Positions 4,678 through 44,963 of a DNA stretch of 44,963 nt are shown piece by piece. Each line of letters starts with the position of its first letter. Within the stretch, counting starts at the first letter, position 1. Source of the stretch: a virus; IMG/VR virus record IMGVR_UViG_3300032224_000208, positions 1-44,963 of that record; one strand, 5' to 3'. Made by a program: the position numbers and the translations under genes. A model generated the notes under the pieces. That model was not told where the DNA came from. It saw only the letters and a program-made list of their open reading frames with translations, and ran no database searches.

Positions 4678-4697
4678 TTATAGTCTCCTTGAATATA

Positions 4698-5798: not shown

Positions 5799-5808
5799 CA
5801 CTTTCTCC

Positions 5809-6441: not shown

Positions 6442-6453
6442 CTATTTCTCTAA

Positions 6454-7926: not shown

Positions 7927-7931
7927 AGAGT

Positions 7932-15625: not shown

Positions 15626-15821
15626 CTTTTTTCCTTGTTCTTATATCCATAATTTCCGCTCGTAGTTCTATTATTAGTTCCCGATTGGCGCTTAACGCTT
15701 GTCTTAACTTTACGCCCCGTTCATACGTCGGCTTGCGTCTGTACTCCAAATGTATATTATGGATTTCCGCAATCGTCTGTAAAAACTGGTTGTAGAGTTC
15801 GTCGTATTTGTTTATGCTCAT
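15600..15821 (-). CDS. Small helical protein downstream of gp46 (73 aa)
   Basis: A 73-residue, predicted all-helical, charged protein (ELYNQFLQTIAEIHNIHLEY, then RGVKLRQALSANRELIIELR). Its ATG overlaps the gp46 stop in an ATGA, so translation is probably coupled. The pattern RGVKLRQAL...RELIIELRAEI lines up loosely with TRSRKALAELSK...TRRNEI in the next gene, so the two could be diverged relatives with a two-helix hairpin form. No defined family is recognised. A nucleic-acid-binding or structural helper role is inference. Confidence 0.6.
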   Translation of the reverse strand: MSINKYDELYNQFLQTIAEIHNIHLEYRRKPTYERGVKLRQALSANRELIIELRAEIMDIRTRKKDERNNSSN

Positions 15822-17599
15822 TGCTCTATGAAGTCAGCAGAATTTGAATATGAAGTAAATCCATTTTCTTTTATCACTTTCAGCACATTGTTTACCCGCC
15901 CAATGAGCTCATCCTTGTGGCTGATTAGGTAAATGTTCTTGTCTCGCTCACGGGCCATCTTCTTTAAGACAGCAAGTCCTGCTTCGACTCCTGCGGCATC
16001 CATTCCTGAATCAATTAATTCATCAATGAACAGCAGGTTAATATGTTTGTATAGGTTTTCCCATACATCACGGAATGCCCAACTTAAACTTAGGATCAAT
16101 CTGTTGCGCTCTCCGCGTGATAAATTATCAAAATCTAGATCTTGTCCCAGCTGAGTGATCTCAACATTTAGATCATTCTGGAATATAACACGATGTGGTA
16201 AACCCATCTTGTCAATATAGTAACCTAGACGCTTGTTTAGGTATGTTAAATTTTGATCAATAATCTTTTTACGGATAAAACTGTCTTTGTTTGTCAACAA
16301 CTTGAGCAAAAACTCTTGATGATCTTTTGTTTTCGTTAAATCGTTAACCGCGGTCCAATCAATTGCCTGTAGGGCAGTGTTCTTTAACTCTTCGATTTGT
16401 TCTTTATAGGGGTTGTCTTCATTTGATCTAGCTGTCAAGCTCTGCTCTAGCGTTGCTAAATTATTTTTATGTCCCAGTGCTTCTGCTTCAGTGTCATAAA
16501 ATGTGTTAGGCTTTTTAGTTACCTCGCCTGTCCCTAGATCGTCTACGACCTGTTTAAGTTGGGAACTCATCTTTTGAAAGTATTCGTGTGCTTCTTCAAA
16601 GTGTTTTGTAGCAGTAGCGGTCATTTCTTCATGCTTGTGATCGTGAAGTTCCTGTTCACATGCGTGGCATGTCTTGTTTGCTAGACTTTCTAACTCTCGT
16701 GTATATTTGTTGAGAGTCTTTTCAGCTTGAATAACTGCTGATTCTAAAGTAGATTTTTGTTTGTTGAGATTGCGAACACGAGTGTTCTCTTCATCCCATG
16801 CTTTTAAAGCCACGTGAGCTGCCAGTTCTGCTTCAATGTCAACAGATTCTAAATTAACAATAGCTCTTCCTAGATTTTCTAGTTCCTGTTGTTGTTTATT
16901 TTCCCAAGCATTGCTTCTAAGTTCTAGACTGTCAATACTCTTTTGTACATTTTCATTGGCTGTCTTGATACCTTCGATCTTAAATGTTTCAGATTGAATA
17001 TTATCTTTAGACAGTTTAATCTGTGTCTTGAGTAGTTCGGCTTTTTCACTAAGCAGAGTAATACCCAGTAGTTGTTCGATGACTTCTCGTTGATCAGAAG
17101 CCTTCATTGACAAGAAAGGTTCAGTATAGGTATTAAGAGCCACAATATGCTTGAACATGGTATGGCTCATGCCTAGCATCTGTTCAATTGCCTTTTGTGT
17201 TTCGCGGCTATCACCTTGGCTCTCATCTTCGTCGGCGGCTTTTTGCTCTTGATCGTTGATGTAGAGTTTTAGAATGTTGGGTTTACGACCGCGTTCTATG
17301 CGATACGCAATTCCGTCGTTGTTAAATTCAACAGTAACCAGCATGGCTTTACCGTTGATCTTGTTAATCAAATTTTCTTTACGGATGTTTGTAAGTGCTT
17401 GTCCGTATAACGCATAGCTGAGTGCGTTGATAATAGTAGTCTTGCCTGTACCGTTACGTGAGCCGCTGTCATCTCCGCCTAGATCTAAGTTTTCTCCCAG
17501 TACAAGAGTTAAATGTTCCTTGTCAAAATCTACAGCTTGGGTTTGATTACCCACACTCATAAAGTTTTTTACAGTTATATTTTTTATTTTAAAGGTCAT
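15818..17599 (-). CDS. gp46: Recombination endonuclease subunit gp46 (Rad50/SbcC-like ATPase)
   Basis: A 593-residue SMC/Rad50-type ATPase that works with gp47 to resect DNA ends for recombination-dependent replication. Walker A is at residues 46-55 (GSRNGTGKTT). A long coiled coil runs about 190-420 and is interrupted by a zinc hook, C311-H-A-C314 in TCHACEQ. The ABC signature is LSRGERNRLIL (about 490-500), and Walker B is LLFIDELIDSG (about 525-535), followed by YLISHKDEL (H-loop). Length is close to T4 gp46 (560). The start overlaps the gp47 stop (ATGA). All key motifs are intact. Confidence 0.96.
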   Translation of the reverse strand: MTFKIKNITVKNFMSVGNQTQAVDFDKEHLTLVLGENLDLGGDDSGSRNGTGKTTIINALSYALYGQALTNIRKENLINKINGKAMLVTVEFNNDGIAYRIERGRKPNILKLYINDQEQKAADEDESQGDSRETQKAIEQMLGMSHTMFKHIVALNTYTEPFLSMKASDQREVIEQLLGITLLSEKAELLKTQIKLSKDNIQSETFKIEGIKTANENVQKSIDSLELRSNAWENKQQQELENLGRAIVNLESVDIEAELAAHVALKAWDEENTRVRNLNKQKSTLESAVIQAEKTLNKYTRELESLANKTCHACEQELHDHKHEEMTATATKHFEEAHEYFQKMSSQLKQVVDDLGTGEVTKKPNTFYDTEAEALGHKNNLATLEQSLTARSNEDNPYKEQIEELKNTALQAIDWTAVNDLTKTKDHQEFLLKLLTNKDSFIRKKIIDQNLTYLNKRLGYYIDKMGLPHRVIFQNDLNVEITQLGQDLDFDNLSRGERNRLILSLSWAFRDVWENLYKHINLLFIDELIDSGMDAAGVEAGLAVLKKMARERDKNIYLISHKDELIGRVNNVLKVIKENGFTSYSNSADFIEQ

Positions 17600-18609
17600 A
17601 GGTTATTATAAATGTCCAGTAACAGCTTTTTGTCAAACGATTCAGATTCGATATTGACCAGTTGTTCGGTAACAATTTGATCAACTGATTCAAATTTTGT
17701 ATCTGGACTATCATCTATAGTACCTTCTACATTATTTTTTTCTTGTATTAGACTAATTTCTCGTATGTCATGCTCTGTCATGAATGTTTCTTTTAAGAAA
17801 TTAGCCTCCTCAAATGTAATATCAATGTCTAAGTTGACTTTGAGATACATTTTAGATTTCATTATGTCATCTTTTTCGTCAATAAGCCTGCTTAATTTAA
17901 CAGTCCTATACTTAGGAGCATCTGGCCAGTCAGTAAATTGCGGCTCGCCGTTCCATTCTAGAGTCATCATACCACGTTCGTCGTCCCAGGTATCGGCAAA
18001 GTTATGGGGGAACGCATTGCCCATATAGACGATCTTACCTCGCTGTTGTCTTTTGTGGAAGTGTCCACTAAACACATAGTCTTGATGTTTAAAATGTTCA
18101 GCCTGTAGTTCACCGTGGTCGGGCATCTGTACCATGGCATTCATATAGAACAAGGGCAGTTCAAAATGCCCAAACATATACTTGCTCTTGGTCTGGCTAA
18201 TAGTCTTCCACTCATCGCCGACTAACCAGGGAACTAAGGTAACATCATCAAGTGTTGTAACACGATCTACAACTGTAACTCCAGGGATGTATCGGCCAAA
18301 CGCAGAACTGTGAATATCACGTTTGTCTTTGTAGAACAGATCGTGATTACCAGGAAACCAATAGAACTGTTCAAATGCCGCGCCTAGTTTTTCTAAGCAT
18401 CGGATAGAAGTATCTAACGTAATTAGATTGATACTGTTTCTGTTGTGATGCCAGTCACCTAAAAAGATACAGGTTTCGCACCCCTGCTTTTTTGATTCGC
18501 TAATAAACCAGTCAACAAAGTCCTCACAATCTTGATTGTGAGTATTTGAATTTGATTTTAAGCCAAAATGTATGTCTGTAAAACACGCTACTTTCTTAAA
18601 AAGTGCCAT
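17596..18609 (-). CDS. gp47: Recombination endonuclease subunit gp47 (Mre11/SbcD-like)
   Basis: A 337-residue calcineurin-type metallophosphoesterase, the nuclease partner of gp46. The metal-binding motifs appear in order: D12-I-H14, G51-D52-W-H54, G87-N88-H89-D90, then GHFE and GHFHK in the middle third. Length matches T4 gp47 (339). AGGAG lies ten bases before the ATG, and a sigma70-like promoter lies just upstream, overlapping the end of gp55. It precedes gp46 as in T4. Confidence 0.96.
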   Translation of the reverse strand: MALFKKVACFTDIHFGLKSNSNTHNQDCEDFVDWFISESKKQGCETCIFLGDWHHNRNSINLITLDTSIRCLEKLGAAFEQFYWFPGNHDLFYKDKRDIHSSAFGRYIPGVTVVDRVTTLDDVTLVPWLVGDEWKTISQTKSKYMFGHFELPLFYMNAMVQMPDHGELQAEHFKHQDYVFSGHFHKRQQRGKIVYMGNAFPHNFADTWDDERGMMTLEWNGEPQFTDWPDAPKYRTVKLSRLIDEKDDIMKSKMYLKVNLDIDITFEEANFLKETFMTEHDIREISLIQEKNNVEGTIDDSPDTKFESVDQIVTEQLVNIESESFDKKLLLDIYNNL

Positions 18610-18629
18610 TAATAGATTCTCCTAGATTT

Positions 18630-18659
18630 AGTATAGCAGGGTAGGAGGATTAAAGTCAA
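18630..18659 (-). promoter_or_regulatory. Sigma70-like promoter for gp47-gp46 operon
   Basis: Minus-strand TTGACT (18654-18659), 18-base spacer, TATACT (18630-18635); each hexamer matches the bacterial consensus at five of six positions. The -35 overlaps the gp55 stop codon. It would let host polymerase make gp47/gp46 independently of late transcription. Confidence 0.65.
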
Positions 18660-19591
18660 GCCTCTGCGCCTTCTTCTTCATCCGGAATATCTTCACTCTT
18701 GGGCATACGCATATTCTTGTATAGTTCGGCCTGTCGTGCGGTTTCTTCGGCAAACTCTTGTTGATTCTGACGAGTCATACTAGGCATTAAACCGTTCTCT
18801 TGTAGCATGTCGTCTCGAATATTTTGGTTCTTTTTTTCAATATTCAACACACGAGTGAAGCTATTTGTGACTGCCGCTGTGTAATAAGCGAAGGGGTTTT
18901 CCGACTTAGATTCGTCAAATTGAAGTCCAATTTGACTTAGTTGTAGTATAGCTTGACCACGCATTTCTTCAATATATGTATATCCGCGCCAGTTTGATCG
19001 CTGTGCGTAGCGTTCAGATAACTTGATAAACATTTTACCTAGGTTTTCTGTAATACGCCCGTGCTCTTTACTAAAGACACCAGTATCTAATGTGCCCTTC
19101 CAATGACTTTTTCCTACGCATATCAGTTCATCTGGATTAGTATCATCGTATTTCCAATGTTGGAATGGAGGAAAGTTTACTTTATCGTGTGCGTCTGCTG
19201 TGCTTTTAACTGTTTTCTTACGACCCGGTGCTTGTGGAACATGATCAAATGTCATTATACGGATAACAACATCTGTTTTAGCAATGGTTTTATAATCGGG
19301 GGTACATTCTGATAGTTTGATTTTCTTATCACCGGCTATTCTCGCGGCGGTAAATGCTTCAAGTCCCATGCGTTTGGCCCTATTGCGCTTGGCCTCGGCT
19401 ACGGTTCGAACATTTATTTTATCTAGACTTGATAAAATTATATCATGCTGTCCGTACTCTTTTTTGGTAAAACTTGAAAATGAATTTTTACTCTTATGTA
19501 TTTCTGCTAGTAAGTCTCTGTTGTTTAAGTATCTTACTTTTCTTCCTGTTGGGGCGATTGTAACCGCCTGGGGTTGTTGTGATATAGCCAT
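18656..19591 (-). CDS. gp55: Late transcription sigma factor gp55
   Basis: A 311-residue relative of T4 gp55, the small sigma-like factor that brings host RNA polymerase to TATAAATA late promoters. The typical core lies in the C-terminal half: FIKLSERYAQRSNWRGYTYI (about residues 191-210), then MRGQAILQL and ENPFAYYTAAVTNSFTRVLN (about 235-255). T4 gp55 has 185 residues; here an additional N-terminal region of about 180 residues precedes the core. The C-terminus is acidic (DEEEGAEA) and shows no hydrophobic tail like the one by which T4 gp55 binds the sliding clamp. AAGGAGG lies ten bases before the ATG. Confidence 0.9.
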   Translation of the reverse strand: MAISQQPQAVTIAPTGRKVRYLNNRDLLAEIHKSKNSFSSFTKKEYGQHDIILSSLDKINVRTVAEAKRNRAKRMGLEAFTAARIAGDKKIKLSECTPDYKTIAKTDVVIRIMTFDHVPQAPGRKKTVKSTADAHDKVNFPPFQHWKYDDTNPDELICVGKSHWKGTLDTGVFSKEHGRITENLGKMFIKLSERYAQRSNWRGYTYIEEMRGQAILQLSQIGLQFDESKSENPFAYYTAAVTNSFTRVLNIEKKNQNIRDDMLQENGLMPSMTRQNQQEFAEETARQAELYKNMRMPKSEDIPDEEEGAEA

Positions 19592-24536: not shown

Positions 24537-26786
24537 ATGCCAGAGTTAAAACGAACGGGATCGAACGCAACATTACCCAGCGCCGGCCCTTTTTTAGCAA
24601 TTATCACTAACCATTTAGATCCCACTTATATGGGAGCACTTGAAGTTGCTCTCCTGAAAAAAACAGGATCTGATCTACAAGAAACTGCTGAGACACACAT
24701 CGTAAATTATCTCAGCCCATTTGCGGGCAATACGGCAATACGTTACGAAGGCTCTGATTCTTCGAATTTTAATGATGTACAAAAAAGCTATGGTTGGTGG
24801 GCAGTTCCTCCAGATATCGGCGCGACCGTGATGGTTATATTCCTTGACGGAGATCCAAATCAAGGTTATTGGATAGGTTGCGTGTTGGACCGTTATCAAA
24901 ATCATATGGTACCCGGTATTGCCGCTAGTAAGAATGTTGAAATTACCCCCGATCAAGAAAGAAAATATGGAACAAAAAATCTTCCTGTAGGAGAATTTCA
25001 CAAGAAATCTCGTAGCGCCGAAAGTCCAAATGTAAACCAGTATAATAAACCTATCCATCCTTTCGCTGATAGATTATTAGCAAATGGATTGTTGTTAGAC
25101 ACCGTGAGAGGAATAGCCACCAGCAGTTCTCGTAGAGAAATTCCCAGTATGGTATTTGGAATAAGCACCCCTGGCCCTTTAGACCCTAACGGCAAAAAAG
25201 TAACACTACCAAATACTCCTGGTACTCAAATTCCTGTGAGCCGATTAGGCGGCAGTACTTTTGTCATGGACGACGGCGACGAAAGCGGCGAAAGTGAACT
25301 AGTTCGTATTCGTACAAGAACAGGACACCAAATCTTATTACATAACAGTCAAGATTTAATCTACATTGCCAATTCAAAGGGCACTGCTTGGATTGAATTA
25401 ACCGCTGACGGCAAGATTGACATGTATGCTAACGACAGCGTAAGCATTCGTACTGAGGGAGACTTTAATTTTAGAACTGAACGAGATTTCAACGTTGATG
25501 CCCAACGTAATATTAATTTTTATGCTGGCGGTGATTTCCATCAAGATGTTAGAAGAGCTTATTATCTCAATGTAACTGACAAGGCGGCAATTTCTGTAGG
25601 CCAAACCTACGATCTCAGTGTTACTGATAATATTACAATGAGCAGTGCGAACGAAGTTCATCTAACCGCGGCCGCCAACGGATATATTAAAATAGGAGCC
25701 AGTCTACATACTAGAGTAGCAACTGATTCATTCTCATACACTGCCAATAATATTAATATTATCTCGGGAAAGACTACATTTATGGCATCTGGATCAGATA
25801 CTAATATGTCAGTCGGCGGAGATTTAAAATTAACTGCTACAGGATCTAGCAACATTAACTCGTCGCATCACATTGAAACTGCTGGCACTATTGACATGAA
25901 TGGTCCTGCCGCGGCAGCCGCCGACCCTGCTACTGAAGCTGACTCTGCTGATCTAGCTGATCAAGTTAATGCGCTGCAGTTATTTCAATTACCTAATAGA
26001 GATAAAAATCTAGGTTGGGAGGAAGGCAAGTTCTATAAAGCAGAAGATTTGGTCACCATATTAAAACGAGCACCAACATTTGAACCGTGGGAACAGCACG
26101 AAAATATCGAACGAGACAAATTCAGTAAAGATGCGACAGATTTACAAACTCGTAATTCTGTTAATAAGATAGCACAAGGCAAAGATGCCAAGACATTTAA
26201 ATCTTCTGCGGTTCCTTATACAGAACCACCAGCGTCTAAGACTTCTCCTGTTATCAGCCAAGAATCAAAGACAACAACTCAGTACAAAGTTCCACCAGCG
26301 GAGTCTGGATCACCTCCTCCTCTATCTGGAAATGCTGCACAGGATAATATTTCAGCATTCTTGTTTATGATTCGTAAATGCGAAGGCACATCAGGACCTG
26401 ACGGTTATAAAACAATGTTTACAGGCAAGAAGTTTGATGATTTTGCCGACCATCCTCGCAAAGCAATTACAGCTGGAGTTAACGGTAAAGGATTAACATC
26501 AACTGCCGCTGGCGCATATCAGTTTTTATCTAGCACATGGGACGAGTGTAAGAAACAACTTGGTCTTACAGACTTCAGTCCAGCTAACCAAGACAAGGCC
26601 TGTATACTGCTGTTAAAACGTCGAAAAGCACTTGACGATATCAAAGCAGGAAACTTTACAGCGGCTATTAAAAAATGTAATCTAGAGTGGGCCAGCTTGC
26701 CAGGATCTCCTTACAACCAACATCCTAAAGATCTTAACGTAGCGTTAGGTTTTATTAAACAGGGCGGAGGAACCATAGTTGCGTAA
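24537..26786 (+). CDS. gp5: gp5-type baseplate spike with C-terminal lambda R-like lytic transglycosylase (749 aa)
   Basis: Domains in order: an OB-fold domain (about residues 15-125, with VPPDIGATVMVIFLDGDPNQ followed by GYWIGCV), as in T4 gp5; a VgrG-type beta-helix (about 270-450) with short strand repeats such as FNFRTERDFNVDAQRNINFY; a Pro/Ser/Thr linker (about 550-600); and a C-terminal enzyme domain (about 600-749). The enzyme domain has RKCEGT with candidate catalytic Glu616, DHPRKAI, STAAGAYQFLSSTWD, LGLTDFSPANQD and EWASLPGSPYNQ. These match lambda R endolysin, a lytic transglycosylase (GH104), rather than T4 lysozyme (GH24). It would open peptidoglycan at infection. In T4 gp5 the enzyme lies in the middle; here it is terminal. 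AAGGA precedes the ATG. Confidence 0.9.
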   Translation: MPELKRTGSNATLPSAGPFLAIITNHLDPTYMGALEVALLKKTGSDLQETAETHIVNYLSPFAGNTAIRYEGSDSSNFNDVQKSYGWWAVPPDIGATVMVIFLDGDPNQGYWIGCVLDRYQNHMVPGIAASKNVEITPDQERKYGTKNLPVGEFHKKSRSAESPNVNQYNKPIHPFADRLLANGLLLDTVRGIATSSSRREIPSMVFGISTPGPLDPNGKKVTLPNTPGTQIPVSRLGGSTFVMDDGDESGESELVRIRTRTGHQILLHNSQDLIYIANSKGTAWIELTADGKIDMYANDSVSIRTEGDFNFRTERDFNVDAQRNINFYAGGDFHQDVRRAYYLNVTDKAAISVGQTYDLSVTDNITMSSANEVHLTAAANGYIKIGASLHTRVATDSFSYTANNINIISGKTTFMASGSDTNMSVGGDLKLTATGSSNINSSHHIETAGTIDMNGPAAAAADPATEADSADLADQVNALQLFQLPNRDKNLGWEEGKFYKAEDLVTILKRAPTFEPWEQHENIERDKFSKDATDLQTRNSVNKIAQGKDAKTFKSSAVPYTEPPASKTSPVISQESKTTTQYKVPPAESGSPPPLSGNAAQDNISAFLFMIRKCEGTSGPDGYKTMFTGKKFDDFADHPRKAITAGVNGKGLTSTAAGAYQFLSSTWDECKKQLGLTDFSPANQDKACILLLKRRKALDDIKAGNFTAAIKKCNLEWASLPGSPYNQHPKDLNVALGFIKQGGGTIVA

Positions 26787-26800: not shown

Positions 26801-27235
26801 ATGGCATATAAAAATATTCAAATAACTCCTGCGAGCGGCAACTCACAAAACACCGTCAAGTCGGCCCATTTTTATAAAGGGTTCAGTACACTAGACGATA
26901 AATCTGCCAGTATCAAGTTGTTTGACTACGAGCTTATCAAGCAGGATATATTGAATCAATTTAATACTCGCAAAGGCGAACGAGTTATGAATCCCGCGTT
27001 CGGAACTTCAATTTGGGATTTAATTTTTGAACCATTAACTCCTGCCGTTAAAGATAAAATTGCCAATGAAATTAATAGTGTATTAGCAAGCGATCCTCGG
27101 GTAGTACCAACAAATGTTGCTATTACTCAAGGAGATTATGGATTCCGTATTGAGTTAACCTTAAGGTATGTTAACACTGATCAAACAGAAACGATGCAGA
27201 TAACATTTGATAGAAATGTTGGTCTCTCGTTATAA
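26801..27235 (+). CDS. gp25: Baseplate wedge protein gp25
   Basis: A 144-residue member of the gp25/gpW-like family (PF04965), a conserved wedge subunit that binds gp6 and helps nucleate the sheath. The core RKGERVMNPAFGTSIWDLIF (about residues 57-76), followed by EPLTPAVKD, is typical. Length is close to T4 gp25 (132). The start has no nearby ribosome site, and a TAAATA element abuts it. Followed by gp6, as in many T4-like baseplate operons. Confidence 0.95.
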   Translation: MAYKNIQITPASGNSQNTVKSAHFYKGFSTLDDKSASIKLFDYELIKQDILNQFNTRKGERVMNPAFGTSIWDLIFEPLTPAVKDKIANEINSVLASDPRVVPTNVAITQGDYGFRIELTLRYVNTDQTETMQITFDRNVGLSL

Positions 27236-27287: not shown

Positions 27288-30200
27288 ATGATACCATCAA
27301 CAAATACAAAATTACTAGTGGCGGAAGATTGGAAAAAGGTATATCAATCTTTTAAAAACGCTGACTTCAAATCTTATGACTTCGACACCCTACGTCGAAC
27401 TATGATTGGGTATCTTCGTGCCAATTATCCAGAAGACTTTAATGACTATATTGATTCAAGCGAATACATTGCGCTAGTCGATCTTATTGCTTATCTTGGT
27501 CAAAATTTAAGTTTCCGTGTTGACCTTAATGCTCGAGAAAACTTTTTAGAGACAGCAGAGCGTCGAGACAGTATTTTACGTCTTGCTAACTTGATCAATT
27601 ATAATCCCAAGCGTAATGTTGCCGCTTCGGGGTTTTTAAAGATCACAGCAATTAATACCACTGATAACGTATTAGACACTAACGGTATCAATCTAGCAGA
27701 CACTTCAATAACATGGAATGATTCTACCAATGCTGAATGGTACCAGCAATTTTTAAGTATTATAAATTCGACCATGCCGGGTAGTTTTACCTTTGGCCGT
27801 CCTAATGATAGAGCTGTTATTTCTGGCGTCAATACAGAACAGTACAGTATCAACACACAGTTAGCAGATGTTCCAGTATTTGGTTTTAATAAATCAATTG
27901 ACGGTACAAATATGAGTTTTGAAGTAGTAGGTAGTACGTTTTCAGGAAAGACCTACGTTTACGAAGATACTCCCTTACCAGGTAGGAATTTTTCTGTTCT
28001 ATTTAAAAACGATAGTAAAGGCAGCGGTAGCCCAGATACCGGATTCTTTGTTAGTTTTCGTCAAGGCAATCTAAGTGCTAGCGGATTTTCTGTTGATGTT
28101 CCTACAGAAAACGAAATCATTGGAGTCAATGTAACTAATATCAACGATGATGATGTATGGTTATGGCAACTGGATTCAGCAGGAAACTATGCTAACGAAT
28201 GGAAAAAAGTACCAAGCGTTACAGGTAATAATATTATCTATAATAGTTTATCAAATTCTGATAGAAATATCTACGCAGTAATTTCTAGAGAAAGTGATCA
28301 GATTGATCTAGCATTTGCTGACGGCAACTTCGGTAACCTACCTAAAGGTAATTTCCGTTTGTTCTATCGACAAAGCAATGGTTTAAATTATATTATAAAA
28401 CCAGACCAACTGCGTGGTATTCAAATCACTGTGCCGTATCTAAACAAACAAGGTCAGAGTCATCAATTGACATTGACACTGAGTTTACAGTATACAGTTA
28501 GTAACAGTAGTGGTGCTGAGTCAAATGACAGTATCAAATTAAAAGCACCGCAGTCGTACTATGTACAGAATCGTATGATCACTGCCGAGGATTATAATAT
28601 CGCGCCTTTAACAGCAGGCACAGATATTTTAAAAGTTAAAAGTGTTAATAGAATCTCTAGCGGTATATCAAAATATTATGAATTGACAGATGTCAGCGGA
28701 AAGTATTCCAGTACTAATATTTTTGGAACAGACGGACTTCTTTATAAGAATATTTCACAAGATACATTAGAATTTTCTTTCACTAGCCGCAATGAAATCT
28801 ATGCGTTTCTGAAAGGAAGCATGTACACCGTAGTAAATTCAAATTCTCTACGTGACTTCTATTATGACAAATGGCCTAGACCAGATGTCACGTCTTTGGG
28901 AATAGAGTGGACTCAGGTTACTAAAAAAACTGGTCAGACTACAGGGTATTTCCAAGACACTCTTCTAAATCCTACCATACAAACAGTAGGGTATTTTAGT
29001 TCTAACAGTTTAAGTTATGTCACTCCGGGTGCGCTAGTCAAGTTTGTATCTCCTTATAACGCCACCGGACAATCAAAATATCAAAACGAAAAATATTTTT
29101 ATAATGGACAATTGATTAAAAATTCTATACCTGGTACCTCGCAATATGTATGGTCTAAGATTATCAATGTCATCGGTGACGGCGCCAACGGTGGCAAAGG
29201 CAAACTTGCGGACGGGTCTGGTCCTGTAATTTTAAATGGTACTATTCCATCTGATGCTGTACCTACTGAAATTATTCCTGAATTTGTAACCGTATGGGAC
29301 TACGCTTTAGAAACAACTATCGTTAATCTATGCGTTGCCTATAGAAACTTTGGATTGAGTTTTGATAAAACAACACGTCAATGGTTTGTTATCTTAGAAA
29401 CTGATCTAAATCTATATGATCCTTTCAGCCTGCTATATCAAGCAGATACTACAAATCAAAATTTAGATACAAGTTGGTTGGTTGCGTTTGAGTGGACAGG
29501 CAAGAGCTATAAAGTACACTATAGAACAAACCAATATCTATTTGAAAGTGAAAAACAAACTGCTTTCTTTTTTGATAAAACTCAAAAGAACTTTGATTTC
29601 GTAAGTTCTAAAGTTATTAAAGATCAGATTAATGTTTTAAGCGTTAATTCGCAAGCTACCAGTACATCAGCATTGGGTGTAGATTATAATTGGGAAATCG
29701 ACGGGCTGGTTGTAGAACCAGACGGATATACGGATTCTAGAAAAGTTAAGGTAAGTTTCTTTGATGCTAAAGATGACGGTCAAATCGATGATCCTGACAG
29801 TTTCAGTGTAATCGTTGCTCCAGAATCTACAGCAACCAGCGTTACTGGATATAAATCAAATTTTGTTTATTTTGAATTAAGTTCAGACGGATTAAAATAC
29901 AATCCAGTGGATCTTTCGAAGACTACAGTTGAAGCATATCCGAACGAATCGTTGGTAACGAATCCTAGCACATCTACTGTTTATTATTTCTATGATCCAA
30001 CAATTGATGTTCTTAAGACATATTCTGATGTTACCCATACATTCCAATTAGCACCAAGTTACAAAGCCTTTGTGGGGCGTAAGGGACTGAAGTTCCATTA
30101 TCAACATAACAGCGGTGACGATCGTAGATTAGATCCAAGCAAGACTAATTTGATAGACATTTACCTGTTGACAAAAACATATGACACTGCCTATAGGAAC

Positions 30201-30722
30201 TGGTTAGTTTCCGGTGGCACAGAACCTTTGCCGCCAACAAGTTCGAGTCTAGAAGAAAATTATGCTCCGTCTCTTGAAAATATTAAAACAATTAGCGACA
30301 CGTTAATCTATCAACCTATAACCTATAAGCCTTTATTTGGGGCGGCCGCACCGTTGAATTTACAAGCAACTTTTAAAGCTGTGAGAAACAGCAATTACAA
30401 CGTAAGTGATAATGATTTGAAAACAAGAATACTAACTGCTATTGAAAATTTCTTTAACATTGATAATTGGGACTTTGGTCAAACATTTTATTTTTCCGAA
30501 CTAGCCACCTACGTGATGAATTCGTTAACTCCGGACATTACAAATTTTGTTATTGTTCCTAAATCTAACTCAACATTTGGAAGTCTATTTGAAATCAGTT
30601 GTTTAACAAATGAAATATTTGTTAACGCCGCAGGAGTATCAGATATTGAAATTATTGATTCTATCACATCAAGCGCATTAGGATTGAGCAGTCCTATTGT
30701 AACAACGACTACCGGGGTATAA
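27288..30722 (+). CDS. gp6: Baseplate wedge protein gp6 (enlarged, 1144 aa)
   Basis: The N-terminal 110 residues are strongly gp6-like: YLRANYPEDFNDYIDSSEYI (about 43-62), LSFRVDLNARENFLETAERR (about 74-93) and LANLINYNPKRN. The C-terminal part (about 1020-1140) has a gp6-type gpJ-like domain, with NDLKTRILTAIENFFNIDNW and FGQTFYFSELATYVMNS. T4 gp6 has 660 residues, so about 480 extra residues, mainly beta-rich, lie between the two. gp6 dimers form the ring holding wedges together and switch shape at infection. The stop is followed after three bases by the next gene. Confidence 0.93.
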   Translation: MIPSTNTKLLVAEDWKKVYQSFKNADFKSYDFDTLRRTMIGYLRANYPEDFNDYIDSSEYIALVDLIAYLGQNLSFRVDLNARENFLETAERRDSILRLANLINYNPKRNVAASGFLKITAINTTDNVLDTNGINLADTSITWNDSTNAEWYQQFLSIINSTMPGSFTFGRPNDRAVISGVNTEQYSINTQLADVPVFGFNKSIDGTNMSFEVVGSTFSGKTYVYEDTPLPGRNFSVLFKNDSKGSGSPDTGFFVSFRQGNLSASGFSVDVPTENEIIGVNVTNINDDDVWLWQLDSAGNYANEWKKVPSVTGNNIIYNSLSNSDRNIYAVISRESDQIDLAFADGNFGNLPKGNFRLFYRQSNGLNYIIKPDQLRGIQITVPYLNKQGQSHQLTLTLSLQYTVSNSSGAESNDSIKLKAPQSYYVQNRMITAEDYNIAPLTAGTDILKVKSVNRISSGISKYYELTDVSGKYSSTNIFGTDGLLYKNISQDTLEFSFTSRNEIYAFLKGSMYTVVNSNSLRDFYYDKWPRPDVTSLGIEWTQVTKKTGQTTGYFQDTLLNPTIQTVGYFSSNSLSYVTPGALVKFVSPYNATGQSKYQNEKYFYNGQLIKNSIPGTSQYVWSKIINVIGDGANGGKGKLADGSGPVILNGTIPSDAVPTEIIPEFVTVWDYALETTIVNLCVAYRNFGLSFDKTTRQWFVILETDLNLYDPFSLLYQADTTNQNLDTSWLVAFEWTGKSYKVHYRTNQYLFESEKQTAFFFDKTQKNFDFVSSKVIKDQINVLSVNSQATSTSALGVDYNWEIDGLVVEPDGYTDSRKVKVSFFDAKDDGQIDDPDSFSVIVAPESTATSVTGYKSNFVYFELSSDGLKYNPVDLSKTTVEAYPNESLVTNPSTSTVYYFYDPTIDVLKTYSDVTHTFQLAPSYKAFVGRKGLKFHYQHNSGDDRRLDPSKTNLIDIYLLTKTYDTAYRNWLVSGGTEPLPPTSSSLEENYAPSLENIKTISDTLIYQPITYKPLFGAAAPLNLQATFKAVRNSNYNVSDNDLKTRILTAIENFFNIDNWDFGQTFYFSELATYVMNSLTPDITNFVIVPKSNSTFGSLFEISCLTNEIFVNAAGVSDIEIIDSITSSALGLSSPIVTTTTGV

Positions 30723-30725
30723 TAA

Positions 30726-33700
30726 ATGGGAAATAGTATTATTAATGTTGTAGACGCTAACAATCCCGGCTCTAACCGTCGCAGTGTTGACTTGCTTCCT
30801 AATGTCTTTAGAACAGATAAAAATACAAAATTTTTATCAGGAACATTAGATCAACTTATTCAACCAGCCAGTGTTGAGAAGATTAGCGGCTGGGTCGGAA
30901 GTAAGATTACTCCTACATACGATCCTAAAAAAGATTTCTATCTAAAAGAAACTATTCCTTTTAGAAAAAAATATCAATTAGAACCGGCAGTTGTAGTAAA
31001 AGATTCTAATCAAAATATAACAAAGGCCTTTAGTTATGATGATCTAATAAATCAATTGGCATTTGATGGAGCATTAACAAATGATCTAAACAGATTATTT
31101 TCTCCTGAGATTTACAGTTACGATCCTCATATTGAATGGGACAAGTTTGTAAATTTTGATCAGTATTACTGGTTACCTTTAGGTCCTGATGCCATTACTA
31201 TCACCGGCGTGGCTAAAAAGACTGTCAGTACATATACCGTTGTTGATGATACTCTAAAACAATATTTTATTTTAACTCCGGATGGCCTCACAGAAAATCC
31301 CATGCTGACTCTATACAGAGGAGTGACCTATGTTTTCAACGTAAACAGTTCACATAAATTCTGGATCAAAACTCAGCGTACTCAGGGAACTGATTACGCA
31401 TTTAACGATACTGTTACTAATAATGGAACTGACAAAGGTCAGATAATTCTAACAGTCGACGATGATACTCCTAAAAAATTGTACTACGTTGCTGAAGATA
31501 ATACTATTGCTGGTGGAGAAATAATTGTCAAGTCGTTGGTTGAAAACACAATAATCAATGTTGAAAAAGAAATTGTGGGCAAGCAATATTATACTTCAAG
31601 TAAAGGAGTATCGCTGTCCAACGGTATGAAAATTAAATTTGATGGTGAAGTTGTTCCTTCGAGATATTCCGATAAAGAATTTTTTGTAGAAGGAGTAGGT
31701 ACTGCAATTAAATTAATTGATGTTGCTGTTTTACAAACTCCCGAAGTTTATTCTGATTATCTAGATGATGACTTTGATGCCAGTCCATTTGACAAATTTC
31801 CTTTCGACGATTTCCTTACCCTTCCTATATATCCAGAATATATAACAATCAATAGATCAAGCATGGATAGGAATCCATGGAGTCGTTACAATCGTTGGAC
31901 ACACGTTGACGTTATACTTGCTACGGCAGCGGCAAATAATTCTGAAATAGCACTACCGCAAGAATATCGAGCTAAACGTCCAATTATCGAATTTAAACCT
32001 AATTTACAATTGGCAAATTTTGGTCGCCAGGCAGCGATTAATATTCAACACGTTGATACTATAACTACGGACGCCTTTAGTAATGCTGAAGGACAGATTG
32101 GTTATTATGTTGATGAAGTACTAGTCGAAGCTGGAGATCGTGTGGTATTTGCCTCAGATACCGATCCTCTTGTAAGAAACAAGATTTATAAAGTTGAATT
32201 TTTAAATAATGACGGTACATTTAGGATACACTTTGCCGAAGACGAGCATAGTCAGGTTTATGATAAAGACAATGTAGTTGTAACTAAAGGAGTCAACAAC
32301 GCAGGTACTAGTTGGTGGTTTGACGGATCCGGTGAAGGAGTATGGATAGCCGCCCAGCATAAGATATCATTAAACCAAGCACCGTTATTCGATGTATTTG
32401 ACTCTACTGGTGAAAGTTATATTTCTAGTTCAAATTATAATGCCGACTTTGGCGGGACAAAGATTTTTGGATATTCAGTTGGTACTGGATCAGTTGATCC
32501 TGTATTAGGATTTCCTTTAGAGTATAGGAATGTCGCAGATCAAGGATATTATCTATTCTCTAATTATTTCATGACTGATTCATTTACCAATGTAATGGAT
32601 GAAGTTAGTTCAACAATTAATACGAACTCTGGATTTTTAAAGTTGAACGGAGAAGTTGAAAAATTTATCAACGTATGGACAGAGTCTACTCCTTATCCTA
32701 TCCCAGTACTTCAATATCAAGTTATTGAAACTGCTACGTCAAATGTCACATTGAATGCGATTGCTAATCCAGGCTATCAGGATTTTAAATTAGATGTTTT
32801 CTTAAACAATATCAAATTAGTTAATAAAAAAGATTACGCAATACTGGGAAGCAAAGATGTTGTTATTATTAATTTTAATAATCCGTTAGCAGTAAATGAT
32901 AAAGTTCTTTTTAAAATTTATTCCAACGGAAAAATAACAGATACAGGAGTCTATGAAACCAGTATAGGTTATACAAATAATCCATTAAATGGTCCTAACA
33001 GTTATTTCACATTGAGCGAACTAAGTGACCATGCTCGATCAATGGCAGAGAGAGATCCTGATTTTGTTGGCGATTTTATAGGTAAGAATAATATTCGTGA
33101 TCTTCCGGATTTCAACAAATATGGAACAAGATTAATTGTAAATAAAAATCCTTTAAGTTTTTCAAATTATTTTGTCTGCGATCGATCTCATGATGTTGTT
33201 AAAGCCACTCGTAAAATTGGTCTTCAGTATAATCAGTTTAAACTTAATTTGTTAAAGGCATCAGCCGAGCTTAAGAATGTATATTCTAATCCTGCTGATG
33301 CGTTAGATATTGTATTACACAATGTTAATCTCACTAGAGATGCGCAATATCCATTTAGTCAAAGTGACATGTTGGCCTACGGCCCTAATGTGATTTCTAG
33401 GGATTACAAAGTTACTGATCCACGTATTAATCAATATACTTTACCTAACGGACAATTTACACTAGACAAATTAGTACTTCGTTCGGTACTGGTATATCTA
33501 AACAATGAACAACTACTAAACGGAGTTGATTATGTATTTGATCCTTATCTAGCGTTAGTCAATATAAAATCTACATTATCTAAAGGTGATGTAATTACAG
33601 TTAAAGATTATTCAACAACAGACGGTTGTTTTGTTCCGCTAACTCCTACCAAATTGGGATTATTTCCTGCGTTTGAACCTAAGAAATATGTTGATGATAC

Positions 33701-36700
33701 ATATTCTGTAACACAAACTGTAATACAGGGTCACGACGGTAGTATTACTGTTGCCTATGGAGACAGCAGAGACGACATACTTTTAGAATACGAGAAACGT
33801 GTTTATAATAATCTCAAAACTAGATACAATCCAGATTTACTAGATATTAATTCAGTATTGGCAGGTGGTTTCAGAAATAATCCGTTCTCATATTTTGAAA
33901 TTTCTAGGATACTTGAGAAAGAATTTTTAAAATGGGCAGGATTCTACGGGTTTGATTATACAGCCAATAATCTAGTAGACGATAATCCTAAGACATATAA
34001 TTATAGATCGGCACTAAATTATGTAACTGGTCGACCACTGCCCGGACACTGGAGAGGGATATACAAATATTTCTACGACACCGATCGACCTCATACATGT
34101 CCTTGGGAAATGCTGGGATTCACAGTTCAACCCATGTGGTGGGAAAACATCTACGGCCCTGCTCCTTATACCAGAGGAAACCTGCTGTTATGGGAGGATT
34201 TAGCCGCAGGAAAAGTTGCCGATCCAGACAATACATCGATTAATCCTCTTTATATTAGACCTGGACTGTTAGATATGATTCCGGTAGATGATGCTGGTAA
34301 TTTATTAGATCCTGGATTTGCCAACGCGGCATTAAATGTAAATCCTATTAATATTTCTGATAATTGGGAATTTGGAGATCAAGGACCGACAGAAACCGCG
34401 TGGAGACGCAGTTCATTATGGCCATTTACAGTTCAAATTTTATTAGCAGTAACACGACCTGCTGACTATTTCTCTCTTATGTTTGATACAAGCAGGATGA
34501 AAAAGTCATTAGCTGGTCAATATGTTTATACTGATACTGGTACATTTTTAACTCCTAACAATTTATCAATTTACGGTGACAACGGAATGCTGGCTGCTGG
34601 ATATATCGCATTGTTAGTTGAAGCTGGCCGTCAGACAACTAAAAATTATATAAGCAATCTAAAAGAAGAATTAGGTTCAATTAATTTACAACTGTTACAT
34701 AAAGTAGGCGGATTTGTCAGTAAAGACAAATTAGAAATTACTATTGATTCAGTTAGTCCTACTACCGCTAATCCTGGAGTAAATTTAAATAATGAAGATT
34801 ACACGATATTCTTAAATCAAGGTAGTCCAATCGCAGTTCAAAGTATTTCAGGATTGATAATTCAACATACTGATGCTGGTTACGTATTGAAAGGATATGA
34901 TAGAACCTATCCGTATTTTACTATATATCGTCCCGAGTATACACAAACTGATGTAACATTAACTGTTGGAGGAAAGTCTGAGCCCTATGTTGAGTGGAAG
35001 CCATCGTCATTATTAAACGACGGTGCTATTCAAATTGGTGTAGCCGAGACATCACCTTCTGGCAGTTCTTTTTATCAAACTGGTCAAGTAGTATCCTATA
35101 ATAACGGCTGGTATAGAGTTAAGGTATCGCATACTAGCGGATCAACTTTTAACGGTTTGTACTTTACACAGATATCAGGTCCAAATTTAATTGGTGGCGT
35201 TAGTGTAATAAAACCTAGAAAATTTGAAAAACTAGAGACCTTAATTCCCTATGGTACTGTGTTCTCTACAGTACAAGATGTATATGATGTTATCTGCGGA
35301 TACAGTGAATGGCTAACCAGTCAAGGATTTGTATTCGACGAATTCCAACCTGACCTAAGTCAAATACTTAATTGGGAATACGCCGCTAAAGAATTCCTAT
35401 ATTGGTCGAGCCAAGGATGGGCAGTTAATAGTGTAATCACGATTAGTCCATTTGCTAACGGGTTGAAATATCAAAATCCAAATGGAATTGTTGATAATGT
35501 ATTAAATCGGTTTTATGAATACAGCATATTAAAAGCCGACGGAACAGTTCTTCCTTCAAATAAATTAAGTCTACAACGTCTTGATAATATATTTAAAATT
35601 AAAACAGTAAACACACTTGACGGCATTTATTTTGCTCAATTAAATGTTATACAAAAAGAACACAATATTATTTTAAACAACGCAAGTTATTTCAATGATA
35701 TTATCTACGATATCGAATCAGGATATCGTCAACATAGAATTAAACTAAAAGGATTTAGAACAGCAAATTGGTCTGGCAGTTTAAACAGTCCTGGGTTCGT
35801 ATACGACGAAGCTGTTGTTACAGACTGGACAGCCTATACTGATTACAATGTAGGAGACATTACTAGATTTAATGGCAACTACTATAGTGCCGCTACAAAG
35901 ATTAACGGAACAAGTACGTTTGTCTTCAATAATTGGGAAGTTCTTGGTAGCAAGCCAGTTACACAATTATTACCTAATTTCGATTATAAGATCAGTCAGT
36001 TTGAAGATTTTTATAGTTTAGATATTGATAGTTTTGATGCCGGTCAGCAAAAACTTGCGCAACATCTAGTTGGATATAGTCCAAGGACATATCTTGACAA
36101 TATCTTCACGGATCAAATTACACAATATAAATTCTATCAAGGATTTATTAAAGAAAAAGGTACCCGTAATACAATCAATAGATTAGACAAGGCCAGTTTA
36201 GTAAGCCTACAAACTAGTATTGATTTCAATGAAGAATGGGCGTTTAGAATTGGTGACTACGGAAGTTTTACAACTAATCAAAATATTGAAGTATCTCTGG
36301 ATCAACAGGCTTTCAAAGAAAATCCTCAAATTATAAATTTCGTTGATCAAACACCTTATCAACCAAACAACTTTTCAATTTACAAAACTGAAAGTGATTT
36401 ATTGTTTAAGCCTGACAATTATGATAATAATCCTTTTGCCGTTACTATGTTTGAGGATCTTGATCCTGATACAATATTGCCTACAGCAGGCTATGTTCGT
36501 ATAGATGAAGTAGATGCTACGGCATATAGCAAAGCTAGTCTGCTTGATATTGCTAATAATAGGAGTATTAATGAAGGCACTAGCATATGGTTAGGATTTA
36601 GAGAAGACGGTGAGTGGGATGTTTATAGATATACCTTAACAAATATACGTATAACCAACGCGGTATTGACATTTCCTGGGTCATACATGACCCTCACAAC

Positions 36701-39700
36701 AAATTATTCTCATAATTTGAATGTGGGTGATATTATTTCAATAAGTCAGTTTAGCACTGAAATTGATGGGGTATTCCTTGTAAGGTCAGTTGAGGACTAT
36801 AATCAGATTACTGTTGTTACGAGTCTAAATTCTATCAGCAATACTTTCCAGCCTGCTGTAGGACTTCTATATAAATTTGCTTCATCGAGACATGCTAGTC
36901 TTGATGCTCTAGCAAATAATCCCTTATTGGTGAAATATAATGCCGGCGAAAGAGTCTGGATCGATAAATTAGTTCCAGGATCAGACGATCGTTGGTCAGT
37001 ATACCAAAAAACAGATGCTTATACAAAAACTACAGCTACGAATTATGATCCTGGTATAAGTCTAGTTAGTAATCAAACGTTTGGTAGTAAAATTGCGGTC
37101 AATGATATGGCCGGAGTTGTCATGGTCGGATCTCCAACATACCAGTCTACTATCAACTCAGGTGGCCATGTTAGTGTCTACAGGAAATTTGGAACAGATA
37201 ATAAACAATTAACAAAATTATTAAATGTTCAATTATCTAATTCTCAGTTGACATCCAATAAATTAGGAACAAGTATAACATCTTACTACAATGGTAGTGA
37301 TCCGTTACATCCTACTATAGATATTATTGCCGGCGCACCTGGTGGTAGAGGACTGGTGAAAATTGTAAGATTAAATCTTATTAATTTAACCTCCTATGAA
37401 GTTGCTGTAATACTTTCTCCTACTACTGATAAGTCTTTTGGACAAGATGTATACCTAGCACCAAATGGTGTATTGTATATTGGTGCTCCTGGAGAGGGTA
37501 AAGTTTATTATGTAGCTGACTATAATGTATCTACTACTCCTACCGTATTAGCTACTCACGCTGTAGGTTATGGAACAAGTATAAGCGGATCAGGAAATGT
37601 AATTTCTGTAGGTAGCCCTGCTGAAGATTTAGTATATGTATATACTAATACTACTCCTAAAGAAACTATTACCTGTCCGTCTGCGTATGTTGCTGGGTAT
37701 TTTGGTAAGAAAGTGGCAATGGCAAATGATGGTACATTATTTGTTTCTAGTGATACTGGTCAGAGAGTATTTGTCTATTCAACTGGATCGACGTACTCTT
37801 TATTCCAAACAATTACTGCTCCGGATCTGGCTAACGATACTGCGTTCGGAGTTGACATCGGAGTCAACGGTACTAGTTTAGTCATTAGTTCGGCAGGTAC
37901 AGGCATAGGTAGTGTTGCGTTTGATACAAACAAATCTGGTACAAATTTTGACAGTTCTAGCACTACCTTTATCAATAAGATAAATTCTTCTGGTAACGTC
38001 TATGTTTATAATAAACTATCGACGCAATATGTGCTTGGCCAGACTCTCAAAGAAGACCAACCTGCGAATCAATCTGCTTATGGTTATTCAGCAACTATAG
38101 GCAACGGTTATATTATCGTCGGAGCGCCGGGACAAGTTTCATCATCTAGTATCCAGACAGGAAAAATTTATATATTTGATCAAAAGGCAGGTGTTAACCA
38201 ATCTTGGAATCAAATTCATATTGAAGAAGATGTTGTTGATGTAAGATTAATAAATCGAGCCTTTACACTAGATAATGTAAATGATAAAATCGTTGATTAT
38301 TTAGAAATAATTGATCCAGTTAAGGGACGAATTCCTGGCAATGCCGAACAAGAAATCAAGTATAAGACAGTATTTGATCCTGCAGTCTACAGCATCGGAA
38401 TTACAGGAACGGTTAATGATACCAAGACAAATTGGTTAGATGATCATATAGGGGAACTATGGTGGGATCTAAGCAATGCCAAATATGTAAACTATGAACA
38501 AGGAGATTTAGAATTCCGTCGCAATAATTGGAATCGATTATTCCCAGGCTGTTCTATCGATGTCTATGAATGGGTCCGTTCTAAGTATCTACCTAGCCAA
38601 TGGTCTGCCTTGGCAGACACTAACGAAGGACTAGCACAAGGAATCAGCGGCCAGCCTAAATTTGTTGACAATTCCGTTATTAGTATCAAACAGATCTACA
38701 ATGCGACAAGTGGAGGTTTTACTAACGTTTATTACTACTGGGTTAAAAATAAAACAACTGTACCGACTCAGCTTAACAGACGGATCAGTGGATTTGAGGT
38801 AGCAAATTTAATTGCTGACCCCAAGGCACAGGGATTAAAATATGCCAGCATGATTTCTAAAAATGCCTTGATGCTGACAAATATTAAACCTACACTAAAA
38901 GATAATTCAATAAATCTTTCTGTAGAAATTGATTTAATAGACAACGATGTCAAGAAGCATACCGAATGGTTGCTTCTGAGAGAAAATGATCCTACTAGTG
39001 TTTTAGAAATTTCAAGTGCTTTGACACAGAAATTATTAGACAGTTATCTAGGAAGAGATCCTCTAGGTAATCCAGTGCCTGATCCTAATTTGCCTGATAG
39101 ACAAAAATATGGAATCGGATTTAGACCTCGTCAAAGCATGTTCAAAGATAGACTAGGAGCATTACGTACACTCTTAGAATATATAAACTCTATTTTTAAG
39201 AATTTATTAATTAACGAAACAGGTTATAATTTTTCAAGCCTATACGCAAAAGAACAACCAGAAGATTCTGCCGACGGGACATGGGATATAACAGTCTTTG
39301 ATAATATTGCCCGTTCTCAAATTGTTACAAGATATTGGAGACAAGGCCAGATTCAGATCAATCTAAAAAATGGACGGATTGACACCGTTGATATTATAGA
39401 TTCTGGATTTGACTATGGTCGACTGTCTGGAATAGATACTGATGAGTTTGGAAATTACACTACATGGAGAGGGCCAGTGGTCACTTTCTTAGGTGACGGA
39501 GCCGGCGCCGAAATTAGAACTATCATCGATTCTAATGGTAGTATTATTGATACAGTAATAGTCAACAGAGGATCGGGGTATACATATATCACTCCTTCAG
39601 TTCGACCACATGCTGTGATTGTAACTCTTGATGATACTGTGAACAATCGATGGAGCAAATATCTGTGGAGTTATGATTCAAAGACATATACTAGGGTTCA

Positions 39701-42700
39701 TACACAGAGCTATGATGTGACCAATTATTGGAAGTATATTGATTGGTCTAGTTCTGATTATATAAAAAATAGAACTATAACAAAAACATTGGACTACACT
39801 TATCAACTGCCAATTATATCTGTACCAGTTGGGTCATATGTTAGGATTAATAATCCCGGAGACGGAAAGTACATCATTTTAAAGAAATTAGATGTGGCTA
39901 ATTATCCGGGAACATTTAATACAGAATACGATATTGTGTTTAAAGAGCAGGGAACAATACAATTCCTGGATTCTATATGGAACAGTTCTCTCAATAATTA
40001 CGGCTATGACAGTTCGTCGTCTTGGGATCAAACGCCATTCAGCCAGTCTAATGACAAAGAAGTCGAATTAATTACTCAGGCATTGCTGATCGATATTTTG
40101 AATGGTCAATTACAGATATATAATAATATACTATGGTTTAAGGCTGTAAAGTATGCGTTAACTGAACAAAAATTCTTAGACTGGGCGTTTAAAACCAGCT
40201 TCATCTACGTTAATCATAACGCCGGAAAATTAGATCAGCGTCCCACATACAAACTTCAAAATACAAGTTATTATGAAAGTTATATCAATGAAACCAAGCC
40301 TTATCACACTAAAATAAGGAACTTCAAGAGCATATATACTGCTAGCGAAACAACAACAGCATATCCTACAGACTTTGATATGCCTTCTTATTATAACACA
40401 GCATCAAATACATTTGGTGTTGTATCGATGGGAAATCCTTTGTTGTTACAACAGCCCTATGTAAATTGGTTTACTAATTATACATTTACAGTATCTAATG
40501 TCATAGTCTATGACGGCGGTAGTGGATATAGAACTCCACCTCAAGTTAATCTAGTTAGCGTCGACGGCGATCCCGGATTTGGCGCCAAAGCCAATGCCTA
40601 TATTGCTCTAGGACAGGTCACGCAGATTATTGTTACAGATCCCGGGCAGGGCTATGTGACAGCGCCTATTGTTCAAATTGTCGGCGGCGGAAATGCTAAT
40701 CTAGTTCCTGCCAGAGCCAGTGCTAGAATATCAAACGGCAAGGTGCGTAACAATACTATCAAAATGAAATTTGACCGTGTTAGTGGGTCAAATGAGATAG
40801 GAGAAAGGCGAACAGTTGATACATTTACTGGAGATGGTAGTAGCCGTGAATACCAATTAACATGGTATCCTGAATCAGTGATTTCAAACTTCACAGTCAA
40901 GCGTAACGGTATCTTAGTATTATCGAGCAAGTATAGTTTAAGCAATTATACAGCCGAATATAACGGATATACTAAAAAATATTCTATTATCGTACTAGGA
41001 TTTATTCCAGATGCAGGAGATGTAATTACAGTTTCCTACAATAAGAATATTGATCTATATCATGCTGTAGATAGGATTAGAGATTATTATTCTCCAACGT
41101 CTGGCATGCCGGGAAATACTGCTACCATGTTAATGACTGGATTAGAATATCCGGGAGTTACTATTGACACCCTACCGATGAAAAATTCTTCCGGATGGGA
41201 CACGATAGGTTGGGATTCTAATACATGGGACGATTATGACCTAGCTGAAGGATTTTATTCTACATTTGGATCTCCAACGAATAAAGTATTCCAATTACCA
41301 TATACTCCTAAGACGGGTCAAAAACTTAACATTTACGTTACTACAACGTCAACTGGCGAGATCGTAACACGTAGAATAGATGATCCTTATTTTGGAACCA
41401 CTGCGTCAACAAATATCTACGCAACTACTTCAACATTTATTGGTAACGGGCAAACCAGTGTAATCAACATCGGAACATTGACCACTGTTGATACTATCAT
41501 TGATTTTAGACTATCAGGTCAAGACGGTGCTGTAACACCAAATGATGTTGATATTGATACTTTTATCTATGGTGGAACTTGGACAAATGCTCTAACAACC
41601 AGTGACGGGTTAACTGATGTCAACATAGAAGGCGATGGGTTTGTAACTCCTGATAACAGCTATGGCCCAGAAGAAAATCTACCAGGTCGTGTAAGTGACA
41701 CATTGGGAATAAGTGTGTACTCACGTCCTTCAACGTCATCACCTGTTGTTACCAGTAGAAAATATATTGTTGACGGATCTAATTTGACCTTAGACATTGG
41801 AGTCAAACCAGCAAACAGTGCCAGCATACAAGTACTGTTGGGAGAAAGTTTGTTAAATCAAGGAATAGATTATTCAATAGATTTTGCTAATGATCAAATT
41901 TTATTGTTTACAGCGACCAATACTGTGTCAACATCTACAGATGTCAGTGGACCATATTTTTCTTCAAACACTATTGGTCCTCGAAAAGAAGGGTACTTCT
42001 CTCAAATCGCTCAGTTTAACGCAGATGACTCATACCAGGGTCCTTATGATTTAGGATTTGAGTGGAATATGTTTGGTTCTAAGTTTACTCAGTTATACAT
42101 TGGAACAAATGGCTACTTGACATTTGGCGGGGGCTCGTCATTGTATTCTCCGGTTGAGGTCGGGGTATTACCTTATGCCGCTATCTACGTAGAGTACACT
42201 GACCTATGGGAAGGGTACGGTCCTAGCGGGCAACCGTTATCAAGCGGTGAAACTCCTGGTATATTTTATTCAACAGGCACTATAGGAAAATTCAAATATT
42301 TCAGAATGAGATTCCAGGGATCGCATTATATTGAAAGAACCCAAACTCCTACAATTCCTACCTATGATTATGAATGTACTCTATATAGTGACGGAGTTAA
42401 TCAGTATGTTGAAAACATCTATGAAATCATTCCTAGCACAGTGCGCGGATTAGGGTCTAATGATATTGGCGCAGTATTTGGAATCGCCGGTCCAGGCTCT
42501 ATTGGTAATCCGGGATCGGGCGTTGCTGTTAGTCCAAGAGATGTTGCCAATAACACTAGCCATGTATTCTATAGTACAAATAATGGCGGTAATTGGAAAT
42601 ATGCTGGCAAAGGAAGTTTTGATGCTTTCAAACAACAAGGTCAGGTCATTTCGATTAACACATCTTCTCCTAAGGCGTTATCTATAACAACACTAGGAGT

Positions 42701-44963: not shown

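Follow-up and report, generated by a model that had tools for sequence, protein, structure and literature searches.

A giant virion protein of a jumbo phage, encoded directly behind a gp6-like gene, as a candidate baseplate wedge arm

The window analysed here, a linear IMG/VR virus record of 44,963 bases that is probably a fragment and was used in its entirety, ends inside a giant gene which is a real phage gene read in a single frame and not an assembly fluke, and whose product is among the largest known to be borne by virus particles. Its product is best regarded, with a probability of roughly 0.6, as a giant structural protein of a jumbo myovirus of the RaK2/Atu_ph07/PA5oct type that fills the gp7/gpI place in the baseplate wedge and carries surface-binding modules. 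Points in favour of this assignment are the single frame, membership of PHROG 10938, adjacency to gp6, the presence of homologues in virions, the resemblance of the KGT-containing segments to P2 gpI, and the modules themselves; points against it are the lack of profile homology to gp7, of a Tail_P2_I match and of a gp7/gpI fold match, together with the "head and packaging" label that PHROG 10938 carries.

Reading Frame and Expected Length

The giant gene (Table 1) begins with an ATG and runs for 4746 codons on the forward strand, still open at the last base. When its 14,238 bases were shuffled 200 times with composition preserved, the longest open frame over all six frames reached 182 codons at most (mean 116). 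The visible part of the protein, computed from the translation, has a mass of 527.1 kDa. The initial annotation had described at least 14.2 kb in one uninterrupted frame and a protein above 500 kDa, and both statements hold. No tandem repeats of note are present within the gene.

Since the window is the entire record, the stop codon falls outside it. Its position was estimated by comparing the window's final 130 residues with the C-terminal 260 residues of each of 132 complete relatives; ten of these have C-termini that match at i-E<0.01. All ten place the stop 38–67 codons (median 55) past the end of the record, which gives an expected full length of about 4,784–4,813 residues (approximately 4,800 aa). 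The possibility raised earlier that the frame is broken just past the window is thus not borne out, the end of the window being aligned with the C-terminus of the family. That the length of the frame is an artefact of assembly or of frame is very improbable: it does run out of a virus record that is itself fragmentary, and a handful of relatives have far shorter frames (2167, 2495, and 2608 aa), but colinear frames of similar length occur both in independent contigs and in the genomes of cultured phages. One such independent contig (L017) is 50.8% identical to residues 16–3511 of the window's protein in a single frame. The short relatives (L203:5342–11842, L123:5957–13441, and L128:2855–10678, respectively) look complete, and their shortness reflects either a broken frame or a version that is naturally short or split.

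Table 1. Features of the baseplate cluster and of the giant gene, in positions of the window; residue (aa) numbers are those of the giant protein.
Feature	Coordinates	Strand	Evidence
gp5-like hub/tail lysozyme gene	24537..26786	+	PHROG 13211 E=8.6e-50
gp25-like wedge gene	26801..27235	+	Pfam GPW_gp25 E=3.6e-12
gp6-like baseplate wedge gene, 1144 aa, directly upstream of giant gene	27288..30722	+	PHROG 10646 E=9.7e-285, PHROG 219
Giant wedge-cluster virion protein, 4746 codons visible	30726..44963	+	Open frame, PHROG 10938 E=0
N-terminal block, aa 1-160	30726..31205	+	Conserved in 12/12 aligned proteins, window included
Core, aa 955-2010	33588..36755	+	968-1083 aa in 64/68 aligned proteins; AlphaFold2 pLDDT 75.6
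Weak CBM5/12-like (chitin-binding) module, aa 1423-1482	34992..35171	+	Pfam CBM_5_12 E=0.0083 (below cut-off), VIA Z 3.7
CBM5/12-like module, aa 1695-1742	35808..35951	+	VIA Z 8.4, rmsd 1.1, 45 aligned residues to 8fqc_P1
KGT...EEW motif, aa 1808-1840 (KGT at 1811-1813)	36147..36245	+	Conserved; faint P2 gpI resemblance, hhalign 26.0%
Variable insertion site, aa 1956-2493, FG-GAP (beta-propeller) repeats	36591..38204	+	123-1360 aa in relatives
Conserved block, aa 2494-2850	38205..39275	+	Alignment with relatives
Conserved block, aa 2980-3230	39663..40415	+	Alignment with relatives
Variable C-terminal part, aa 3231-4746	40416..44963	+	521-1615 aa in relatives with complete ends
Stretch aa 3737-3973	41934..42644	+	Gap between matches; no counterpart in most nearest relatives

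A Widespread Family of Virion Proteins

Profile comparison places the giant protein, as a new member, in the known family PHROG 10938 ("virion structural protein"). The family profile matches it in four stretches (E=0, 1125.6 bits), the best of which aligns residues 688–1698 with positions 546–1466 of the 3324 in the profile. Members of this family are encoded by RaK2, 121Q, GAP32, PA5oct/MIJ3, Atu_ph07, and SCTP-2. A tblastn search with the first 3000 residues found relatives in 62 phage records, mostly jumbo phages, including PA5oct/MIJ3, SCTP-2, Atu_ph07, Phosso, CBB, RaK2, 121Q, and GAP32, and the conserved blocks of the protein are common to 11 members from cultured phages. In viral contigs, a profile scan detected at least 471 relatives. 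Relatives were taken from four such scans (the best 80 of 471, 80 of 467, 80 of 222, and 80 of 223), with loci reaching 10 kb from the match, and the length statistics refer to this sample. At least 195 non-redundant relatives were gathered in this way, and 135 of those among the matches listed are complete, with lengths of 2167–5343 aa and a median of 4408 aa; 24 of these 135, again among the matches listed, have at least 4746 aa. The window's protein is thus long for its family but not exceptional, and the rarity that had been implied for a protein of this size gives way to a widespread jumbo-phage family. One further member (L252:2516–21166) is larger still: its single frame runs for at least 6217 codons and remains open. 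The last 300 residues of the window, used as a query against viral contigs, retrieved no relative because that part is divergent, and a search of NCBIfam with one of the alignments (A1) returned unrelated weak matches only.

Two homologues of the giant protein have been detected in virions by published mass spectrometry. In phage phAPEC6, gp245 (381.88 kDa) was reported with 17 unique peptides and 7.6% coverage (PMC7247149), and the computed mass of 121Q gp582, 381.9 kDa, is the same. In phage CBB, CBB_236, which adjoins the wedge protein CBB_237, was reported with 21 peptides and 7.72% coverage (PMC5259590). For AP-J-162, a 4455-aa "Structural protein" is tabulated after a 1198-aa wedge protein (PMC11242549). 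A coverage of just 7–8% of the frame in these published data would also be compatible with a chain that is not intact, as in a tail polyprotein in which one translated chain is cut into several virion proteins. Such processing is unlikely, given that the accessible portions of the published proteomics make no mention of separate products and that one continuous frame has been kept across the 135 non-redundant complete relatives. In the literature and structure libraries searched, with subscription journals largely outside that search, no solved structure of or assigned role for PHROG 10938 was found.

Gene Neighborhood

The giant gene lies in a baseplate cluster behind gp5-like, gp25-like, and gp6-like genes, its ATG (30726) being situated 3 bases past the stop of the gp6-like gene (30722). 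Among the relatives, 184 members have at least 2.5 kb of upstream sequence, and 176 of these have a large open reading frame ending there; this frame matches the window's gp6 in 174 of the 176 testable loci. The gene position originally compared with that of T4 gp7 thus holds in the window and in nearly all of these relatives. PHROG files family 10938 under "head and packaging", yet the gene adjoins gp6 in a baseplate cluster in nearly all loci, and the label is probably mistaken.

Several other features of these loci deserve mention. Upstream of the giant gene of SCTP-2, gp141 (L006:2630–11920) is itself a 9291-nt frame (3096 aa) that may be a gp6 in enlarged or fused form. On the other strand of the window, positions 3502–19591 encode a T4-like major head protein, portal, tape measure, SbcC-like subunit, and late sigma factor, a gene content that is consistent with a T4-related jumbo phage. 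Within that region, a 142-aa protein (15003–15431, reverse strand) matches both a PHROG named "NAD synthetase" (E=1.1e-35) and homing-endonuclease PHROGs; the "NAD synthetase" name looks wrong.

Constant Blocks and Variable Modules

Alignment with relatives indicates that the giant protein is built of constant blocks interrupted by modules of variable size, namely the CBM5/12-like and FG-GAP modules and a long C-terminal part. The alignment comprised 68 proteins (the window, 56 contig members, and 11 reference phages). Relatives shorter than 3500 aa and near-duplicates were removed beforehand, which left 57 of 69 sequences, counting the window, to which the reference phages were added. Domain scans (A6, A7, and A8) covered 37, 44, and 42 of the 45 complete members, and the model alignments used 50 of 57 (A5) and 113 of 193 (A12) sequences. 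The core is nearly constant in length, the exceptions being two longer members (L043 and L041) and two that are cut at the 5' end (L072 and L091). The KGT triplet within it is conserved, with K in 206, G in 207, and T in 174 of the 207 alignment rows.

Both CBM5/12-like modules are located inside the core. The better supported of the two, the downstream one, has its closest structural match in an entry from the baseplate of phage Milano (8fqc_P1), other chitin-binding domains matching mostly at Z 5–7, and its Pfam CBM_5_12 score (E=0.0075) is below the cut-off; most of the 11 reference phages lack this module (occupancy 1.1 of 11). The upstream module gave a profile match to the chitinase A1 domain at E=0.02. 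This chitinase A1 binding domain was the only match that stood out in PDB sequence searches with the protein and four profiles (A1–A4), the other rows looking like chance. The insertion site that follows spans 123 residues in RaK2-like phages, 538 in the window, and 1360 in Atu_ph07, and FG-GAP_2 repeats occur there in 39 of 44 members, the window's own match being weak (E=3.5e-4). YHYH domains were found in 3 of the 37 C-termini scanned.

A Candidate Wedge Arm

In the proposed arrangement, the giant protein would take the gp7/gpI place in each baseplate wedge, where the conserved blocks (the N-terminal block and the core with its KGT...EEW motif) would bind the gp6 dimer. The inserted and C-terminal modules, that is, the CBM5/12-like modules, the FG-GAP propeller, and the variable tail, would project from the baseplate rim, and may there grip fibres or contact surface glycans. 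This reading is drawn by analogy with XM1 gp17 and T4 gp7. XM1 gp17 (242 aa) has been described as an ortholog of T4 gp7 (1032 aa) in which regions 80–106 and 201–242 hold the tail spikes (PMC10457771), and the wedge arm might be a scaled-up version of these short spike-holding loops. T4 gp7 is reported as a 119.2-kDa monomer present in six copies (PMC3004832); if the giant protein were likewise present in six copies, it would contribute at least 3.16 MDa as compared to 0.72 MDa for T4 gp7.

The identity with gp7 proposed in the initial annotation finds agreement in gene position, after gp6, and not in sequence, as no link to T4 gp7 was found by a method that is insensitive. Direct protein searches with T4 gp7 found no homologue in any of 11 phages bearing the giant gene, T4 and RB49 being recovered as controls. 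In profile comparisons with a T4 gp7 family alignment, 11 segments of the giant protein were used first, followed by eight deeper segments for which the alignment, built from six phages, was cut in three ways; the probability reached at most 2.9%. The accepted relation between T4 gp7 and P2 gpI scores just 0.1–0.2% by the same method, and because this relation is also missed, the missing link to T4 gp7 is no refutation.

A P2 gpI profile of ten sequences was likewise compared with 70 windows of the giant protein. The two best were those with KGT (26.0% and 17.9%), as compared to at most 3.8% for the other 68 and at most 3.7% for 70 reversed controls. The single-test P is 7e-4, or about 0.05 when corrected for 70 windows, so the resemblance is just a lead, and KGT...EEW, as a faint P2-gpI-type motif, is the only sequence hint toward gpI. 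Pfam Tail_P2_I (PF09684) has no match in the window, and the giant protein is hence not assigned to that family; T4 does not match it either, and XM1 has a clear Tail_P2_I gene. Among the 11 giant-bearing phages, no Tail_P2_I match lies above the cut-off, the single sub-threshold match (in 121Q) containing stops and lying elsewhere in the genome. As a query against contigs, P2 gpI retrieved near-identical P2-like copies only.

Structure prediction in segments, as originally suggested, yielded two AlphaFold2 models and no gp7/gpI fold match, although absence from the match lists does not argue for a difference in fold. Against PDB structures, the model of residues 955–2010 matched only CBM5/12 domains, with weak beta matches besides, and against predicted viral structures its matches were the structural protein of Atu_ph07 together with phage proteins that are either uncharacterised or annotated as YHYH. 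A model of a 436-aa 121Q-like segment (L099) yielded nothing beyond chance matches of the immunoglobulin-like type (best Z 4.3).

The main rival reading is that the protein sits at the baseplate periphery or acts as an adhesin and is no more than a neighbour of gp6, with a smaller, unrecognised gene supplying the gp7-like subunit; the absence of a firm fold or sequence link to gp7/gpI speaks for it. Most of the recognisable modules are indeed adhesin-like (CBM5/12, FG-GAP, and the occasional C-terminal YHYH domain), and this alternative is conceivable, if somewhat doubtful. It sits poorly with the near-invariant adjacency to gp6 and with the constant blocks being the most conserved part of the protein, as expected of a scaffold; moreover, no other T4 gp7 or Tail_P2_I candidate was detected in the 11 giant-bearing phages, albeit by insensitive tests.

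If the giant protein is indeed a wedge arm, a more far-reaching view may tentatively be entertained, in which the gp7/gpI wedge subunit of this jumbo-phage group has itself turned into its principal modular adhesin. A single wedge arm of 3,300 to more than 6,000 residues would then combine domains that bind glycans with a beta-propeller and a C-terminal chain of variable make-up, the conserved contraction trigger and the host-contact surface would form one covalent chain, and host range might evolve in part by swaps of inserts in a core baseplate gene. To know whether the protein is the gp7 of the wedge would reveal how far the core of a contractile injection machine can enlarge, and whether the trigger of contraction incorporates modules for host contact. 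With its constant core and variable inserts, the family lends itself to tests of this question in cultured phages, 121Q or RaK2 among them.

Comparison With Known Systems

Proteins of PHROG 10938 are very large virion proteins common in the jumbo phages of viral metagenomes, and the window's copy is one more divergent member. The named proteins of the family (121Q gp582/phAPEC6 gp245, RaK2 ORF070, GAP32_230, CBB_236, Atu_ph07 AUZ94962, MIJ3_00389, and SCTP-2 gp140) share homologous blocks with it at approximately 23–40% identity and occupy the same place behind the wedge gene. The homologues fetched are 3323–4555 aa in length, whereas the window's copy is longer, with a CBM5/12-like module that is mostly missing from the named proteins, an FG-GAP insert where the corresponding site of RaK2-like phages has only 123–126 aa, and a C-terminus that is long and divergent. 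The structural proteins of Atu_ph07, Phosso, and AP-J-162 (4449–4555 aa) are nearly as long as the visible part of the giant protein and share its gene order; those of Atu_ph07 and Phosso are approximately 27–41% identical to it over matching blocks, and differ in an insertion site of about 1360 aa as opposed to 538.

Among better-characterized contractile systems, the gene for T4 gp7, the wedge initiator, likewise follows gene 6, but T4 gp7 is approximately 4.6 times shorter than the giant protein and has no sequence similarity to it detectable by an insensitive test. P2 gpI and XM1 gp17 show the faint KGT...E(E)W likeness to the giant protein in one register, and XM1 gp17 uses extra loops for spike holding; at 176–242 aa, however, they contrast with a protein of about 4,800 residues that is without their Tail_P2_I Pfam match.
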